From Ectocarpus siliculosus (Eukaryota > Sar > Phaeophyceae > Ectocarpales > Ectocarpaceae): 64,000 nucleotides of DNA. The notes beneath the pieces are model-generated. The model was not told the DNA's origin. It did not search any database and saw only the letters and a list, made by a program, of their open reading frames with translations. The translations under genes and the position numbers were made by a program. The DNA lies in assembly GCA_000310025.1 (NCBI GenBank), contig FN648574.1, forward strand, positions 68,694-132,693, given 5' to 3'. Shown in pieces: positions 7,225 through 62,700 of the stretch; position 1 is the first letter of the stretch, and the number at the start of each line of letters is the position of its first letter.

Positions 7225-9037
7225 TCGTACATAAAAAATAGACAGATGGCTCCGCTGTGTGTTGTTTGATGAATTTTCGGCTCAGTGAAGAGTGAATTGT
7301 GAAACGGAATGTGGCTTTTATATACCTGGGCAGAAAGGGTATACACGCCCGGTCCATTCGACGTCTTTATTTCTGACGCGAGGAGTGAAGTTATGCGGAT
7401 TTGAAAGAACCGGGATTTTTTTGTCTTGACACGAAAAAGTTGCTATGGGTTGCACCGTGAGCAACGTAACGATGTGCTGTGTCGACTTGGAGCATGTTAA
7501 GAACGGCAAGGGACTATTTGGGCATTTTCATTCAGGATGTCGAGAAGAGTGAAGGCGGGGTGGCGGGGCGGGGCTTTCTCGCCAAGGTTTACGTTATTTT
7601 TTCGCCGTCTTCGCCATTCCTCTTCCAGTGTAAGGCCTTTCCGAAAAATGCAACTCCGTCTTGTTCTTTGTCGTCGAGGTCATGGGCCTGGCCTTCAAAT
7701 GTAGATGTTTTCAGATGTTTTGTACATCCAACGCTGATTAGGAGTCACCCTATAATTGTTGTCGTGGCTGATTTGTGTTAAACAGTTTAAAGCTTGATAG
7801 ACTGCTGGTCCCCGAAATTGCGGGAACGAGAGGTGACGAGATGGGTCGGGGTGTAGGGAGACTACGTTTGGGGAGACTGCGTTGTGTGGAATGAAAATTC
7901 TATTCGTTGGTGCTGATCAAGGGGCTCCAGCCCGCTTATTCGGTTCTCAGCGTGAGTGCTGTTCACCACTTCCTTGGAACCAGGAGGATAGCATTGGTGG
8001 GAGAAGTTCGGGACGTCATTAATACTCCCGGATATCAGTCGGGAAGCGGGAGCGGGATTAGGGAGGCTTGCCAAGCAAGAAGAGTGCGGGTTGGACGATT
8101 CGAGCAATCCAGTTTGTGCGGGGAAAAAGTTGGGACGGGATGGGATACATGGAGCAGCAGTAATGGGCAGGGAAAACGTAGAAAACAGACGTGATGCAAT
8201 CAAGTGGCAGGAGATAGACCTAGCTGATTCAGGATGTAATTCGTTGGTGAAAAATGAAGTACTACAGTGGTGGCAAGCGAGAGTGAGACCGATCGCGCAC
8301 AGTGGTCGTTACGTGGGGGTCATCACAATTGCGCGCAGATCATCACAAAAAGAGTATTTTGGGATTTGGTCATAGGTCAAAGAGCCCCACTGCACCGTGG
8401 TACACACGCTCTTTTTGTTTGAGAGCACCACCCCTTGGCAGGAGTTTCCTTCTTGAAGCGATAGCACAGTCAGCACACTGCGATGCAGGCGTAAGCAGCG
8501 ATTTTCGCTGTCCCGTCACCTCATCGTTCGTCCTGAAAGAATAGGCCGTCGTTTGAAAAGTATAGGAGCAAGCATTAGGTAGGGACTGTTTCAACGTTTC
8601 AACCCAGTGTACACCCCGAAGACACCGGTCGACGACACCGCTAACAGCGCGAAGACAGCTTAGCACAGCTAACTGCACTGAAAACGAATGGGTGGTAGGG
8701 GGATGCACCCCTGAACGGTGAATGCAGCAACGTCCCTTGGTCAGAACGCAGCGGCTATCATCCGTAGAATCCTGCGAGTCGGAGGAACGAAATGCTTGCT
8801 CGGTGCACTTGATTCCATTGTCACTACAACAGCACAAATCCAGTAATTTTCGAAAATGGTCAATATCTTCCGGAACTATATCTGCGTACATGTCACGCCT
8901 ATCATGATCGATCGTCTGTAGACGTCAAAGTTCTGTCCACGCCATTCTTGGTACCCTCCCTCGCGAAGAAAAGGAAAATTCAAAATTGATGACAAGCTCT
9001 ACTGCATTCCCCGAGCTCGAAAGAGCCATGAACGGTT
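7225..9037. other. Intergenic region between convergent genes
   Basis: This is the 3' flank of the transporter (plus) and of the dioxygenase (minus). No exon chain with splice sites and a recognisable protein was found. A 173-codon minus-strand frame at 8370-8891 has no recognised motif and lies in the probable dioxygenase 3' UTR. No clear polyadenylation signal could be assigned. Confidence 0.5.
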
Positions 9038-12836: not shown

Positions 12837-15800
12837 CTACTCCAGGTCTGCGAGCTCCAGCCATCGCTCGGTCTTGGACTCTGTCTCGACTTCTATTCTC
12901 GCCTGCTCCTCCATCCATGCAGCGATTTCATCGTACCTGCAACAAACAGAGTGGCAGCGCCTTAGAAGTGGGCGGGTAGCCCACAAGTCGCAGCTCCACA
13001 CTTAATATATTCGCAACACACATCACTAGTTCAAATCCACACGGGAACCTGTTCTCTACGTCAGCAATCACACCCTCCCATAGAGCCTGGCCAAGAAGAT
13101 GCGACACTAGACTCTTACTATCGTCGCGTGGCCCCACGCAACAACAGATTATCACAGATATGGAGAAAAATGGACAATTCCATGGATGAGGTTATCATCG
13201 TATACCCCACAAACAAAGGTGGTCGAGGTATCCTGTATTTCTTGCATCTGCAGTGGGGCAACATTTACACCTGCCGGTATATAACCACGCAGCCGGGAAA
13301 AAGCTGGAGTGGTTCGTTTGCCGTCTTCCTGAAAATTGTGCGCTTGATTTCTCGCCGAACTATTTTCGTTTCCGATAGCCAAAGCACGCGTCCTAACTCA
13401 CCCTGCCGAAGGGTTTTCCGCCTCCGCCGCTAGCAGCGCGTCCAGCTCTCGCCCTCTCTCCCCCAGCGACTCGATGTCCTTTTCCAAGTTGCTGAACTCA
13501 AACCTCTGCTTGTTTGACATCTTCTTGGCCTTCTTTCGCGGAGCGGGAGTGGATGGGGTCGGTGCATCTACCGCCTGCGAGGACCCCTTGTTTTGGGCCG
13601 CCTCTTCCGCCTCTAGCTTGACCGCCGCGGCTTTGGAGCCCCCAACGCCTCCGGCCTGAAACGTGAACGGTCAGTCGCGTGCGGGGCGCACAGAGACGTG
13701 ATCTCTCTGACACATGGCGAGGGAACCTTGACGTTGACAATACACGAAACTCTCCCGTTTCAACTGTAAATGAACTTGGCACATGGAAGGAATAGACACG
13801 ACCTTGCTGGTATGTGGAAAGGGGACCCTCTTCATATGTTAAGAATACAAGATTACAAGAAACTCTCCCGTTTCCAATGGAAATGTACATGGCAACATGG
13901 AAGAACTCATAGAGGAACACCCGCGACGCATTCCGCGTCCCAGGTTCACATGACGTATGATACCCGGCATCCGAAATGCCAACCGGAAACAATGGCTTGA
14001 CCAGAGCTTCTATTAGCACCAACGTACCCCAGGCTTCATAAAGTCTTGTCGGTAGTCAAGGTACTCGGTGAAGGTGCCCTGGAAATCGCGCACGACGCCG
14101 TCCCCCTCGAACAAGAACAGGTGTTTAGCGACCTTGTCTACGAAAAACCTTCAGGAAGGCAGGCATGCCGGGGGGTGGAGACGGTGGTTGGTTCATCATT
14201 AGTCATGCATCGCCGAAGCCTTCATTCGGACAACCAACGTCATGCATGGCCGAAGCCTTCATTCAGACTGCCAACGTCATGCATGGCCGAAGCCTTCATT
14301 CAGACTGCCAACGTCATGCATGGCCGAAGCCTTCATTCGGACAACCAACGTCATGCATGGCCGAAGCACTGCCAACGTCATGCATGGCCGAAGCCTTCAT
14401 ATGCAGACCACACGAAGGTGAAGGTGCCGGTCGGCCAAACTTCGAGGAAAACAGCGCAGGGACATAGACGGCTACAAAGACATGCGCGCGGCATTGGCAA
14501 AAAAAGCACGCGGAGTATGAGGCGGAGCACAACCATCTAGACTCCCCCTTGTTTACGAGGGCGGGAAAAGAGCCCTCACCTGTCGTGGGACACGATGACG
14601 AGGCACCCCTTGTAGTCGTTCAGCAGGAAGTCCTCCAAGATCTGGAGCGACAGGATGTCCAGGTCGTTGGTGGGCTCGTCGAGCACCAGGAAGTTGGGGT
14701 TCGTCGCCAGGACCTTGAGAAGCTGCAGCCGCCGCTTCTCGCCGCCGCTGAGCCGGCCGACTCGGTCGTTCCACCTCGCCGCCGGGAACTGGAACAAGTT
14801 TAACAGGCGCCGTGCCTGTACCTGTGGAGGAACCGGCTCCTCGTCCTCGCCCACCTCCGCGCCCGCGCACTGCAGGTTTTCGGAGCAAGCACACGCGACG
14901 GCAAGGGAGGGGAGACAGTGAACAATTACGTCGACAAATGGGGGAGATTTGTTGAAGGACCAGGCGAAAAAAAATCACGTTTTATGGTGAAGCAATCGAA
15001 CTGTTATGTCGTTTGGTTAGGGTATGAGAAAAAGCGTCACGAGGAGATTCGAAAGAGAAACAAAAAACGTGTGCTTCTTTTTCGAATGACAAAAATAACA
15101 GAGTGTGCGTATTCTCCCCGTTGTTGTTGCTCTCGTGTCAGACACTCGTCGAGGGGAGAAAACAACCTCCCTTTTCTCTCGGGCATGAAGACGCTGCTCT
15201 TGGCTCACCGTGTCTTCGACCAGCTCCATGACCCGAACGTCGTCGTCCATGTCGACCAGCCCCCCCTGTTCGTAATACCCGTACCTGTCACAACGAACAG
15301 TCACGCGGGCACGATGAAACCTCCCTAGCGTTGCGCGGAGCATCTTGTCGGCATCTAATTTTCATTCGCATGCCAGGACCTGATCGCAAATCGTGGGCCA
15401 AGCGGAACCAGTCGCAAGGGCAAGGGCACAAACCTTGACACGGGCGTCTCAGAATGCATCCCCCCCGTGGTTTCACTCCTGTCAACCCCCCCGCCCCCCC
15501 GCCACTTGCCGTAGCGGTCTCTGGTTGTCCTTCCATCCCTATCTCCACTCACCCTCCTCCCCTCCCGTCTCTACAAGCATACAAGCGATATGTGATCGAA
15601 ACCGCGAAAACAGAAGCACCAACCAACACTCCCCCCCTCCCTACAGCGAAACGCGCTTCACCTCACGGTGCCCCCCGTCACAACCTCCCCGGTGTCGAGT
15701 AGCTGCTTTCCCATGAGGACATTCAAGAACGTCGTCTTGCCGACGCCGTTCCCCCCGACGATCCCGATGCGGTCCCCCCTGTCGAACTCGTACGCGAAGT

Positions 15801-18800
15801 TGTCCAGGATCTTGGCCGAGAACTTGAGCGACGCGCCTTTAGTTCGTTTCCGTTCGGTGGTCGAACCGGCACAAGGGAGAATACGAACCGGCACAAGGGA
15901 GGATACATAGGAGGAGAGGCAACAGTTAAACGTAGGAGATCTGTTGGGGGGTGGTGATACGTCGGTTTGTGGAGGCATGCAACCACACGCAATACAGGGG
16001 ACGGGGGGGGTTCTTCGAGCTATACCACACCCAAGTATAATACGGGTACGGGCGTCAAGGAAAAACGCCACACACGGCAAAAGGTCCGTCCACGACTTGC
16101 GTTCGGCTGGAGGGTCCGCAGCAACAGTAGTGTAGTGCACTCTTGACAGGCCTAGCACAGCGACCACGTGGATACCGTCAAGCCTACGGGTAGGTTCACG
16201 GTCACCAAAGCTACACTGAAGCCAAACAACTTGGCGCTGCAGGTGTCTCCAAATCATGGGAGGCTTCTGCCGGTCCGAACAAAAATCCACAGACTATGTA
16301 CCGCTGACTCTTTGGTGCCAAAAGCAACGTGGCCCCTAGTGCTGGATTAGTATGAAGTTCACAGGTGGCTCTGAACAGAGTTTTTGGGGAAAAGCAGCAG
16401 ATAATACATGGGCATCGAAGCATGCAGATGTACGTCGGCGGAGGCTTTCCGAAAACCGAGTCGATTCAACTTGCGCGGCGCGAAAAAAAAAAAAAACTCC
16501 CTTGTCGAAAACTTAAGACGTGTGCGGTGTACGAGCACGGAACCGTGCTAAATGTATGATACCATACCATGTGATGTGAAGACAAACGCAACATACCCTT
16601 AAGGTAGACGACCGTCTTGCCAAGCCTCTGAGTCTTCGAAGAGAGGGTCAGTCCCTTGTCGCTCGCACCGGCTGGCGCCGCCGCCTGCGCTCAAAGGTGG
16701 AACAAAAAAGCGGGGACGCGTCGGCAGCAGTAGAGACAAAAGTACAAGCAACGGTTGGACGGTACATCTGGGTTGAGCCGAATATCGGTTTTAGAATGCC
16801 GCGACCTTCGTTCTTTTTGCATCTTTTGAACAAACGATATCTACGAAGCCATTTCGGGGCAATTGGGAGAACCGGCGGTGTTTTCTGCCCCGCCAACTAC
16901 GACCGTTGTAGATACGGTATTGCTGAATTATCAAGCATCGCCGCTTCCAAACGATGACGACGAAAAAATGAGCACACGTTTTAAGGCGAAAGCTGAAGCC
17001 ACACACTTTCCCACCGCATTTCATGGAAGTGCGTCAAAGAAATGCGTACGAAACGCAGCAGCTGCTGGATCTTGCGCTCCTACGGCGATCAAAATATCAC
17101 CGGCTTTCGTCGAACAACAGGAGAACAACCAAAACAGCCATGAGACGAAGAAAAGGCACCGTCAACAACTAAACCGAGGACAAAAATAACAAGGTCCTTC
17201 GTGCGCAGCAGGCCCTTCAAAAACCGCCACGGCACGCGGAGAAACAAGGCGCACACCTTAGTCTTGAGCTCGAAAACTAAAAAAAAAAGGTCCATCGTGC
17301 GCAGCCAGCCCTTCAAAAACCGCCGCGATAGCAACAAAAGAAACAAGGCGCACAGCTTAGTCTTGACCTCGAAAAATAAACAAACAAGGTCCATCGAGCG
17401 CAGCCGGCCCTTCAAAAACCGCCACGGCAAGAAGAGCGCACACCTTAGTCTTGAGCTCGTAGAACCTCTCCTCTCGGGCCTTGCTCTTTGCCTGCCGCGC
17501 CTTGGGCTGCTTTCGCATCCACGCCAGCTCCCCGCGCAGCTTGTTCCGGGCTCTGTCCCGCGCCGCCCCCTCGGCGTTCATCCTCTCTTCCTTGAGCTCC
17601 AGGAAGCGCTCGTAGCTTCCGGGGTACCTGTAGATAGTATACACGCGGGGGGGGGTAAAGCCATCACACAACAGTGCAGCACTCACACTGAATTGGTGTG
17701 TCGCGCGGCGAAATGACTTTTGATCGTATGGACATGCAGCGAACCCCCGACAGCGAGCAGCGTCTTGAACTGGCATGCTCAACCTCGCCCTTCAAAAGCA
17801 AGCTGCCATTGCGGAGCCGAATGCACCGCCATGTTGTTCGTCTCCGCAACGAAGAAGATGGCACGTCCATAGTAGCATCTTTTGTACATAACTCCGTACG
17901 GAAAAAGAACAGCGTGCGGGAGAATTGGACGCACCGTTCTCCGAAAACATGCCTCGGCTGCCAGAAAAAAAAGCGTTTCGCCGCCATTACTTCCTGGAAT
18001 CGACACTAGCCCCTTCAACAGCACGGGGCAACATCGGCTATGGTAGATTTTGTATTGCCGGTATCATTTGTGGGACGGGCGACAAAACGGGTCCACAGAA
18101 GTCAAATGAAACGCCAATTTTCGAAGGACAAGGAACACTTGAGATGTAACCAAACCTGTACAGCTTGGCGGTGTCGAGTTCGATGATCTCTTGGCAAACG
18201 TTCTCCAAGAAATAGCGGTCGTGCGTCACGCACACGAAGGTCAAGGAACGCTCCGCCAACAGCTTTTCCAACCACTCGATCGCTTCCACATCCAAATGGT
18301 TCGTTGGCTGAACGTACGGGACGGGACGGGGGAGGCGGAGGAGCGACAGAGCAGAAAGCAAACGTGGCAAAAGGAGGGGGCTCAATTAGCACCGCCTGTT
18401 GCCATGGGCAACATTTTCTTCTCTCGCGTTAACGATAACAGAAACGTTAACGATAACAGAAGCGAGTGTGTCCGACGGTTCCCTTTTCGTAGCGAAAAAG
18501 CTGTATGCGCGTGTCTTAAACCTCGTCGGGCATGATTCAAGCCACCGTCCAGCTTCTCAAGGATAAAACAGCGAACAGACTTATTCCTTCAACGCATTTA
18601 GCAATGGGCGGCTTGCGTGTGTTACACTTCGTCTCCACTCAGGCCGTGAGAAATTCGGGGAAAACTGCGGTACAGGTTTCGGGTCTGGGAACCGCTTCCC
18701 ACGGGTACAGCAGTCTGCAACGAAAAACGAAACACGCTCCAAAACATATCCAAAGATCAAGTTTGTTGCCCTAGACGGAAGAACATGCTGGAGTTGATTG

Positions 18801-21800
18801 CGCAACGGCAGAGATAACTGCGAAAAGTAGCATGGTTACCGGGAAAACGGGGTCACAACCTACACCTGTTTAGGCTTCTTGAACTTGCCATACTTTTGGC
18901 AACAGGTCCGTTCCCCGGGTGTTTCCGGGCCTAATCCGCCTAGCACGCCAACGCCTTCACCACAAGCACGGAGCGTACAGAAGCACCACCCCCCACGGAA
19001 GCTCCTCGTCTGGCACTACCCAAGCCTCAGGGAGGGCCGAGAAAAAAAAACACAGCGCCCTAACCCCAACACATTAGTAGTCCCCCGTCACAGCACCTAC
19101 AAGCGATTTTTCGCTCACACCTCGTCGAGAAGAAGCACGTCAGGCTTCTGTACCAGGGCTGCCGCCAGGGCGACCCTCTTGCGCTGCCCCCCCGACAGGT
19201 TGACCACCTGCGAGCCCTCCAGGGACATCACGCCCAACCGAGACATGACCTGTGGGGGGGATGGGCGTCGAGCGGGCGGGCGGCGGGTAACTAACCGACC
19301 GGGCGTGCGGGTCCCAAAAGCGGGATGTGTGTGACGTTCCGCAGAAAAGAAAAGCAAGGCCGGTAATACGGCACGGAATTCAGTTCTTGGGACCGTCGTG
19401 CGTGTCGGCCTCCCAACCCGTGCCGTGCTCGGGCAGATCTCGTCGTCTGGGGTATCTATCGCAGTGACCAGTGCGTTGTTCTAATACGTCGAAGGCGCTC
19501 GAACCCCGACAAACAAGAGCGACGCGGCGTGCACAATGACGGCGTTTGCTTGATAAAACGAGTGAAAACAAAACAACAGCAACGCTGCAGGAAGCCAGGC
19601 CGGAGGATGGTAGAAATCTCATTCTTCCCCTCTCTCACGTGGAAAAAATGACTAAAACTTTAACGCAAGTTGGCAAGAACACGCACAACATAACTTTCTC
19701 TCTCGTGCGCAATATGGCACCCCATCCCGTCCAATCTGCACGCCTCCCTATACGTTGGAAAACCTCGTCAAGATGCACGTGAAAGGTCACGGGTCACCTG
19801 CTGAGCGTACGTCTCTACGTCCCACCCCCCGACTCTGTCCATGGTTGCCGTCGCCTTCTCGAACCGGTCCATGGCTTTCTCTAGCGCGTCGGGGTCCGCG
19901 CCCGCGCCCTCGATCGCCTCCGTCGCCAGCTGATAGGCCCGCACGGCGCTGCGATATCGGTAGAACAAAAAAGTAACGAACACAAAAAAAACAATTTCAG
20001 CCGAAAATGAAGAGCCAGGTGATAGACCAGCATGGCTATACGTTGTCGGGGGGCGAAACATAGACAAACACGAAAAAAACACAATCAGCCGAACCATGAA
20101 GAGCCAGGTGATAGGCCCGCACTGCTCTAAGGTGTTGGCGGGGGGGGGAAGCTACAGACACGAAGAGGTGAAAACTGAAGAGCCGGGTGATCGGCCCACA
20201 CGGCTCTGAGTTGTCGGCAGAAACAAAGCAACAAACACGAAAACAAATCAGCCGAAAATGAAGAGCCAGGCGATAGGCCTGCACGGTTCTAAGTTGTCGG
20301 TGAGGGAAAAAGCGACAAACACGAAAAAAACGAAGGGCCGGCCGAGGTCGGCAAGTCGGTACAGTATTGGGCAAGAGAAAATCAACCTGGCAAAACACCA
20401 CGGCGCATGTACGTACGTCTGCTAGCTAGGAATATGTCACTACAGCGTATCTGTGAGGAGGGACATAGGGGCAAGAACAAACGCAGCTGGTGCAATCTTT
20501 GCGCCTTGCCCAAAACCGAAACAAGCAACCAAGTAGCCGCATCCAACCAAACCTTAGATTCAGGTTTCGGAGTACAAGGAGGAAAAGGAACCATCACAGA
20601 CAACAGGCAAGGGAAGAGCATCGAGCACAGAACCAAGAGGAACCAACTTCGCCCACCTCCCCTTCCTCCCCCAATGCCCAACCAGGATGTGTATCCTCAA
20701 GTTTGTTTCATTTTCTTTTGGTTAATGCACACCCTGAAAAAAAAAAGGAAAGTTGTCCAGCCGTCCCATTTTCCCTGCAAGACAGAATAGAACCGGGACT
20801 GTCACAAGAAATCCCTTATTGGGCATGAACTATGAAACTGTGCCCCGAGGTCTCCGAGAGGGATTAGGACTAGTGTGTCCAGCAGTGTCAGGGATGGGTG
20901 CTGGGCACTGTGTCCTCTACTACGAACGCACAAGAAACTTAACTGAACCTTTTCGCTTTGCGTTGAACATAACAAGCTACAGAAAACTCACAACAAAAAC
21001 AACAACAACAACAACAACAACGACAACAAGTAACGGATGCATCAACACACACACGAACAACCTATTTCTGGTAATCAATTTGGTGGTCGGTACTGCTATA
21101 CACGCAACGCAGAACGAGGAGGACCCCCCCCCTCGACTGGTTTTCGCCGACGATCAGGTACCCAGCAAGTGGGACCCTAATCGACACGTCTGTCTACGGA
21201 AACCTCTCCACAAGGGTTTGTAAAGCCAACTTAAAGGCATTGGCGCCCCCTCGAGTATAGAGCAACAATTGAACTACTGTGCCGTCATTATCCACGCACC
21301 GCATGAGAGGGTTGTCCGCCCCGTAAACGGCATCCTTGACGGTGGACCCCGTCGGAAACTCGGGGTCTTGCTCCACGTACGTCACGACAGTTGCCTTGGG
21401 AGACTCGATCGTGCCGGAGTCACAACTCTCCTTCTTTCCCAGCACCTTTCATTGCGACGGGCCAGACAACCAGTAATTTAAGTGTGCTTCGCAAAGTCGT
21501 GGTATGTTTGACTGCCCGAAAAGTCTCGTTGTCAAGCGTGATTTTCGTGACCGCACTCGCCGTTGCGCGACATTTCAAGACGGCTCCGCGTAGGCTGCGC
21601 GGGGCGTGTACTAGCTGCCGCTTTGTTCTCGCTCTCGTTCCCCCAAGTCTCCCTACATGCCATGGCAGGTGGTGCTCATAAACAGAATGGCAGGTGGTCA
21701 TTGCAGGTGGTGCTCATAAGTGCGGGCCGAAGGCCACCGCACACCTAATCGCGAGGATGCGCGTCGACACTGTTGCGAAAATCTACCGACTACGCGTCAA

Positions 21801-59700: not shown

Positions 59701-62700
59701 GAGGCGAGGTCGACGTGGGCCATGGAGAGGATGTGGCGTCGCGCGGCGTGGCCCCCCTTTATCGCACGCCAGATGGCGCTCTCGGCGACGGCGTTTTGTT
59801 TGGGGGTGTCGGGCGCGGTGTACTCGCCCCGGATGCCAACGGCGTCGCAGAACTCGATGAAAGCGGCGCCGGTGAACTCGCCGCCGTTGTCCATGCGGAA
59901 ACATCCCAGAGTGCCCATGCCGTTCATGTCGGCCAAGAAGCGCTTCACGTACTTCAGGGTGTCGCTCTTCGCCCGCATCCCGTACGCCCGTTGCCACCGC
60001 GATGCGCTGTCCACGAACATGATCAGGTACCGGGAGCCGTCCATCGCCTCGGTGAACGGGCCCGTGAGATCGATGTGGACCTTGCCGAACGGCACCGCCG
60101 CGCGTGTCCCACGCCGCGGCACCGGGGCCCTCCTGCCCTTCGCCTCCACACAGCCCACACATGGCTGCAGCTCCCCGACCAGCCTAACACCCTGCTGCTT
60201 GGCAGTCTCACGCATCAAAAACTCGTTCACGTGGCCGGTGGAAGCGTGGAACAGATTAATATCGATGTTTGGCGTGGATTTACCGATCGCAAACGGGGAA
60301 GCACCGGGGGCGATAATCGCCAACGCGTGGGAAAGAGACGGAGGGGCTGCGGCCTGCTGCTCATTGGACTCGGAAAGAAAACCTCTCAACACCTCCAAAT
60401 CATCATGCTGCACAGTGAAAGCCAGGGGAGGGGGCTCCGCAGGCTCAGAGAATTCAAGCGCATCCGGAAAAAAATCATCCGGGGGGACCGTGTCTTTGCT
60501 ATCCATCAACCCAACATCCAGAAACATGCTCATGTCCATGATTGGTAATGCATCCATGGGAGAAAAGGGGGTTGATCTCGATCTCGCGAAAGTCTGTCAG
60601 CTCTACGGCAGTGGGAGACACAATCGAAGACGATTCTACGGCAACCGTAATCACAGGCTGAAAATCGGGGATCGTCGTGGGGGTTGGGTCTACGTCGACG
60701 GACGAAAAAGCACACATCGGAAGCACTACACCGGAAGTGGTAGAGGGGACGCTCGAACTCGAAGGTACTACACCGTCGGATCCGGTGGGCTGGACGTCTG
60801 CAGTCGAAGGTACAACGCCGGCCGGTGCGACGGACTGGAAGCCAGAAGTCGCAGGTACAACGCCGGCCGATGCGACGGACTGGAAGCCAGAAGTCGCACT
60901 CGCACTCGCACTCGTGCCCGTTCCTGCACTCTGGAAAAGGGAGGGGGTGGCCGCAACAAATCCTGTGCCAATGCTAGGCGGGGACGCTTGGGCAGAAACA
61001 CGGGGGGGGGGCATCGGGGCTGTATGTCACAGCACTACCAGAATATTCCGCAGGTAGGCGAGTCGCCCAAAGAGAACATCCTACGTCGCAGTAAGTGAAT
61101 GAAAGTCGGCCATCGAAGAGGTGCACGCCATGTTCGTCTAACGTAATCTTCTGCCTACGCTGCGTATGGTGCACGGAAAACAGGTTGAAGGAGATGCCGG
61201 GGACTACGTACACGTCCGACATCTGCACGCAAAAATCGGTCTCACCCGAAGGACCGGGCATGTGGAACGCCATGTTTACCTTCCCAACACAATGCACGCG
61301 CAAATAGGCACCGTTACCTACTTGGATGTACTCCTTACCGGGCGGCACTGGCCTCAAGTCGAACATTTGATGGCTGCTGCTAACAAACGTGTTGGTCGCG
61401 CCGCTGTCGGCCCAAAATTGCTCTCTGCCAAAATGCGAATTCGGGTTTCGTGCAGCCAAAGCAAATCCATTACCACTCTCACGCTCGGTACTCGCTACAA
61501 CACCACTCGGAACGATCTCGCCTGCAGACACGAAACGTGCCATCAAGAAGTGAAGGGAGCCCGGGGCCGGTGCTGCTGCTCCGGGAGGAGATGAGTGGGG
61601 CGGGGCATGAGTCGAGTGCTGCTGCTGCTGTGGCGGGTAGTACAGCTGCTGCTGCTGGGTGTAGTCAGGCGGAGGCTGCTGGTACTGTGGCTGCGGCTGC
61701 TCCCAACCCCCATACTCGCTACTATTTGCGGGCCCCCCGTAGGGCGTGGCACCGTAATCATGGTGCATCACGTTTGAATGCCCGTGCGGGGGTCGCCATT
61801 GCTGCTACTGCGGGCGAGGGGGGGCTGAGTTTCCATACCTTTGCTGCGCTCCGCGTCCGCCGTGGGGTCCGTGCTGGGGTCCACCATTCCACCCCCCCCA
61901 CCGCGGCCGCCTTGTTGCTGTTGCTGCTGCTGTTGAGGACGCGGATGGTAGTACTGCTGTTGCTGAGGCTGCTGCGGCTGTTGTTGTTGCTGCTGCGGCG
62001 GCTGTTGCTGTTGCGATGACTGCTGCTGCCGCTGCTGATGCTGCTGCCTTTGCTCTTTCTTCCGCTGCTGTTGAGAGCACTCCGCGTTGGTGTGGGTTCC
62101 ATACGGATGAAGGTGACAGTGCCGTTCTCCTCTGGTCTCGTCGCTCCTGTTCCGACCGTCGCCTTTGCCGTCCTGTCCACCGCCGTTCCCACTCGACCCA
62201 TTTGGGACACGTCCGTCGCCCCGGGGCGCACCGGAAGCGACGAAGGCGTGCCCCACGCCACTCTTTTGTTCCTCCTCCCGTGCGCGCACCAGGTCCGTAT
62301 GGGCCTCCTTCACGGAATCCTCTATCTGCTCAAATGTCAAATCAGGGGTGCGGTCCAACAGTTTCTTCTCTAATTTGTAGTCGGATGACAGGGCGGACAC
62401 CAAGTGGTCGTTGGCTTCGTTGTCGGGATACACTGTCCCGTGCGACGCTAGCCTACTCCGCAAAATAGAGAACCTTCCGAAGTATTCTTGTGGGTTTTCA
62501 CCCTCATGCATCGCGAAGCTATGGTACTCCTTCAAGAGTCTCTTTTTCTCGGCTTTCGCTTGGGGCTCGTAATAATACTTGAGGAAAATCCTCCATCCCC
62601 CACTCGGGCTTCCGTCTGACACGATTTCCGACAAGATCGGCATGTATGAGATTGACGTGATGAGTAAATTCCACGCCACTACAGCCTTAGCTACCTTCTG

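Follow-up and report, generated by a model that had tools for sequence, protein, structure and literature searches.

We asked how an intron of Ectocarpus siliculosus came to contain copies of the end of its own upstream exon together with the adjoining 5′ splice site, and whether these copies may have consequences for splicing. The locus lies in a window of 64,000 nucleotides (the whole stretch of DNA that was analysed), where an ABC-F (EttA/Uup-like) ATPase is encoded on the minus strand and the exon end in question is at 17444. The exon (17444–17627, minus strand) closes with the 16 bases CGAGCTCAAGACTAAG, hereafter E1; next comes GTGTGC, presumed to be the real donor. The host intron (16685–17443, minus strand) is a GT-AG intron of 759 bp in phase 0, and the next exon (16597–16684, minus strand) encodes AAAPAGASDKG...VYLK. 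When exons 17627–17444, 16684–16597 and 15836–15662 were joined, the alignment with EttA and Uup ran through the junction. The best protein match of the three joined exons was an EttA (E 6e-25), and exon 17627–17444 matches PF12848 (ABC_tran_Xtn, E 2.8e-7). The splice site at 17444 is the one predicted by this protein alignment, and we infer that the 17444 donor is the only one in use. The modelled part of the gene (21408–14028) has 12 exons, acceptors that include 15836 and 14869, and introns of 336 to 1351 bp; for Ectocarpus autosomal introns, PMC12477816 gives a median of 524 bp.

The preliminary description had reported an intronic array of three units of 96–99 bases, each with the exon end and its donor. 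Copies of the exon edge were indeed found on the minus strand with ends at 17444, 17356 and 17257. Their spacings are 88 and 99 bp, so that the reported unit size holds for one spacing but not for the other. Unit 1 (17372–17459, 88 bp, minus strand) contains the real exon end, the donor and the first intron bases, and shows a gap of 11 bp when aligned with unit 2. Unit 2 (17273–17371, 99 bp, minus strand) contains the copied exon end E2 (17371–17356), which differs from E1 at a single one of its 16 exonic bases (GAGCTC to GAGGTC) and in which the donor GT has become CT. Unit 3 (17183–17272, minus strand) contains the copied exon end E3 (17272–17257), which is identical to E1 across 16 exonic and 8 intronic bases and is followed by an intact GTGTGC. 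The array was thus correctly described as having one extra copy with a perfect donor (17257, GTGTGC) and another without the GT (17356, CT). To the left of the 16 shared bases the likeness to the exon stops, with two of the next four bases differing. Past unit 3 there is no further repeat in the intron, which runs about 500 bp beyond the array. The units match pairwise at 72/88, 75/88 and 80/96 positions in gap-free columns and carry private indels; outside the edge, units 1 and 3 match in 57 of 68 columns. TRF reports a period of 99 with 2.6 copies at 17183–17430, and self-BLAST stretches the array to 17180–17459, reaching into the exon. A donor-edge query of 21 bases (15 exonic and 6 intronic) found a 21/21 match within the host intron. 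The best match among 40 shuffles was 14/21, so the exon-edge match is beyond chance. For the 8 other modelled introns of the gene, the donor edge found no more than 14/21.

The array consists of head-to-tail imperfect copies at one locus, as is characteristic of tandem repeats on the minisatellite scale. Its unit holds a coding exon end and the donor of the adjacent intron, as a junction-crossing tandem duplication would, with the splice site predicted from protein alignment. It does not behave as an introner element, which would have many dispersed near-identical copies: the host array gave one match in the assembly (189,456,909 bases in 492 contigs) in a search that skips simple repeats and scores the best candidates only. 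Nor does a recent ABC-F paralogue appear to be the source, as a 149-aa query returned three matches at E ≤0.001, all within the same ABC-F gene. Frame 1 is open through the array and was not taken as coding because it does not share the exon's reading frame. An assembly or sequencing artefact was also considered, since the assembly is in 492 contigs with gaps and 20 N occur somewhere in the window. However, the interval 16200–19000 is free of N, and edge copies are likewise present on two other contigs (loci L010 and L022, described below). Moreover, the copies are told apart by both substitutions and private indels, and this divergence makes a simple assembly duplication unlikely. We regard an artefact as extremely improbable.

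We propose that the array very probably arose when some 99 bp across the exon-intron junction were duplicated in tandem, an event that was then repeated once, and that it is a by-product of a genome rich in tandem duplications that land on edges by chance. Tandem duplications with lags of roughly 60–500 bp are frequent in this genome, and some would hit exon edges by chance. The duplicated block would have comprised 16 exonic and about 83 intronic bases (~99 bp) spanning the junction, and a second round would have followed. The copies probably derive from the exon, since its edge is coding. They lie downstream of the original junction, which leaves the original exon and donor unmoved. With these in place, normal splicing could go on and the copies would only make the intron longer. 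As fossils, the surplus exon ends and donors may then be free to decay, one having lost its GT and one still retaining it. The measurements agree with the earlier suggestion that the intron grew through duplication of its junction: with the two extra units, 187 bp separate the first and last donor copies of the 759-bp intron. Both the order of the duplication events and their neutrality are presumed. The unchanged donor region of E3 (16 + 8 bases), set against a body with 57/68 matches to unit 1, is a point against this reading in that it is compatible with constraint.

A duplication that lands on an exon edge is not surprising, and the locus on its own is ordinary. When a random 99-bp segment was placed at 7283 positions in the modelled gene, it contained a donor only in 11.7% of cases, an acceptor only in 11.7% and both in 0.4%; it lay entirely in intron in 69.1% and entirely in exon in 7.1%. 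Given that 11.7% of such segments hold a donor alone, and that edge-crossing repeats recur in the same gene and at two other loci, the statement in the preliminary description that ordinary minisatellites do not explain the arrangement is not supported.

The possible consequences for splicing were explored using donor scores from a matrix built from the other 10 donors of the ABC-F gene. Donors 17444 and 17257 tie for the top score among the 59 GTs of the intron. If splicing started from 17257, 187 nt with an in-frame stop in unit 2 would be retained, and a longer protein through this donor is ruled out by that stop. A possible 20-nt microexon (17257–17276, minus strand) lies between CCTTTTTTTTTTAG upstream and GTGTGC downstream; inclusion of this putative exon would cause a frameshift leading to an early stop. 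The 17257 donor or the 20-nt exon could act as an alternative splice site, with non-productive mRNA tuning the level of the ABC-F protein. The top-scoring AAGGTGTGC at 17257 would suit such a role, but an identical donor lies nearer and adjoins the real exon, and the sister copy E2 has no GT. The stop codons that result from both the donor and the microexon are in keeping with it as well, but stop codons are expected from most out-of-frame insertions. The microexon acceptor is plausible in its composition, with a run of ten T and then AG just upstream of E3 and 11 pyrimidines in 16 positions, where the 10 modelled acceptors range from 5 to 12. On balance we find such regulation quite unlikely. 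The earlier idea that the array could seed alternative donors therefore holds insofar as 17257 scores equal to the real donor, but its use would lead to an in-frame stop and the potential is latent at most, with the copied donor no more than a decoy.

The abutting AG and GT at E3 raise a further scenario of nested or recursive splicing. Here the real donor would be joined to the AAG of E3 (CTAAG/GTGTGC), which would recreate a donor, and the intron would be removed in two steps with the mRNA unchanged. The recreated junction would be the same as the original, and the would-be acceptor has 9 pyrimidines in 16 positions, within the range of 5–12 for the 10 modelled acceptors. However, two AGs occur within 20 bases upstream of this acceptor, an interval in which 9 of the 10 modelled acceptors have none, and the intron is a mere 759 bp. 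We therefore consider recursive splicing to be very unlikely.

Tandem duplication across an exon edge, the origin that we prefer for the 17183–17459 array, may have occurred more than once in the ABC-F gene. A second and decayed array, recognized by self-BLAST (19925–20331, minus strand; E 3.8e-34), contains four intronic copies of an acceptor and the start of the next exon. The copies begin at 20288, 20205, 20126 and 20037 and the real exon at 19948, with spacings of 83, 79, 89 and 89; besides the acceptor they take in the pyrimidine tract and the first 23 or so bases of the exon. The AG is retained at the aligned position in three of the four. Comparison of the exon edge with the intron gave a local score of 36, against a maximum of 33 in 1000 dinucleotide-Markov resamplings. 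All four decoy acceptors would lead to stop codons if used. Judged from sequence, any use of the copied donor, the candidate microexon or these decoy acceptors would be non-productive and constitutes a potential only. With this array included, exon-edge arrays are present in 2 of 9 modelled introns of the gene. As TRF did not list the second array at 19925–20331 even at a score of 30, self-BLAST was used for the tandem survey described below.

Edge copies were found elsewhere in the genome at 2 of 21 ABC_tran loci, L022 and L010, on two other contigs. The 21 loci represent 19 separate places, with L014/L018 and L019/L021 overlapping. At L022 (1560–1760, plus strand), the end of an ABC-transporter exon and its donor are copied 128 bp downstream in the intron and GTGAGTG is intact in both; the exon end reads ATGCACAAGCGCC/GTGAGTG and the copy GTGCACAAGCGCC/GTGAGTG. 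At L010 (1658–1802, minus strand), an acceptor-side repeat with about 8 exon bases and a lag of 72 is found at an ABC_tran exon whose acceptor is predicted. Self-matches are present at 8 of the 21 loci, and L010 and L022 were counted as edge copies. The self-match of L016 was set aside as it is outside the Pfam exon and beside N; for L008, L011, L013, L019 and L021 the self-match is at a distance from the Pfam match and did not enter the count.

The frequency of edge-crossing arrays was compared with random placement by a self-BLAST survey that covered the window together with 20 stretches, each of 10 kb and all taken from one contig, and that amounted to 264,000 bases of which 257,548 are non-N. 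The survey was run on 2-kb pieces at a lag of 35–600 and E up to 1e-3, and pieces with more than 500 N were skipped. It yielded 41 tandem clusters, to which the window contributed 6 and the stretches 35. Ectocarpus tandem repeats are said to be rather evenly spread across the genome (PMC12477816). Coding segments were predicted with a codon-usage score trained on 1835 codons, those of the ABC-F gene included, which gave 93 segments; the window accounts for 27 of them and the stretches for 66. A predicted exon edge is inside 2 of the 41 clusters, both within the ABC-F gene, and none of the 35 clusters of the 20 stretches crosses one. Random placement predicts 1.22 edge clusters (20 clusters with a lag up to 120) or 5.24 (all 41), and these expectations are rough, as the score at the threshold used marks 9 of the 12 modelled ABC-F exons and the predicted edges are approximate. 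In the window alone there are two edge-crossing arrays against 0.44 expected for its 6 clusters. A general excess of edge-crossing arrays is thus absent and the local one is mild; chance placement is compatible with these counts, not proved by them. When the 93 codon-score segments were pooled with the 21 ABC_tran loci, which were scored differently (by Pfam match), a repeat lay over an edge in 4 of 114 exon segments, two on the donor side and two on the acceptor side.

Several known systems resemble this locus. In potato, a tandem duplication across an intron-exon boundary was reported in 2016 (PMC4974935). As here, a junction-crossing duplication copied splice signals, but there it gave rise to a novel intron that is spliced and to an insertion of exonic sequence, whereas here an existing intron seems simply to have grown. 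The same potato gene is also described as having an 83-bp intronic duplication that left the gene structure unaltered. The fission yeast genes SPOG_01682 and SOCG_00815 (PMC3629103) have introns of imperfect tandem repeats whose units contain a proto-splice site and extend into the exon; those units are 24 nt and the introns were gained, whereas the units here are ~99 bp and mostly intronic. In the formation of stwintrons in Lipomyces (PMC7138796), a functional donor is likewise copied inside the host intron, as a proposed step to nested introns. The duplications there are put at 4–7 nt and splicing was followed by RT-PCR, in contrast to the 99 bp seen here in sequence alone. In Drosophila genes (PMC2891723), tandem duplication with a proto-splice site also acts on splice motifs, but produced novel intron positions, whereas the intron position here shows no visible change. 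Our locus would be a bystander form of these cases, in which the intron grows, splice sites multiply and the product shows no visible change. Neither this locus nor a survey of edge-copying in such a genome was found among the open-licence papers listed.

It is conceivable, although we are more inclined to doubt it, that introns in this genome commonly grow by edge-straddling tandem duplications and that many hold rows of decoy donors and acceptors, intact or in decay, next to the real site. If this is true, such genomes would be natural material for studying on what basis the spliceosome selects one of several identical sites that lie close together. Each case places at least two splice sites that are, or once were, identical within a few hundred bases and amounts to a natural competition experiment. 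If the rate holds genome-wide, introns would lengthen, and decoy splice sites would arise, by a route that can be measured.

Three further clusters from the survey touch a predicted coding segment but were left out of the edge count. L041 8358–8534 is a pyrimidine-rich repeat that abuts a segment without entering it. L029 2644–2815 is a CAG-type repeat over a marginal segment with a score of 19.5 (thresholds 18, then 22). The cluster at 61912–62073 of the window is a CTG-type repeat and lies inside a predicted coding segment (61888–62331, plus strand). The window also contains a tandem cluster with a lag of 113 at 13741–13903, and an array of 4.5 copies of 37 bp at 14202–14367 that is wholly within another intron of the ABC-F gene.
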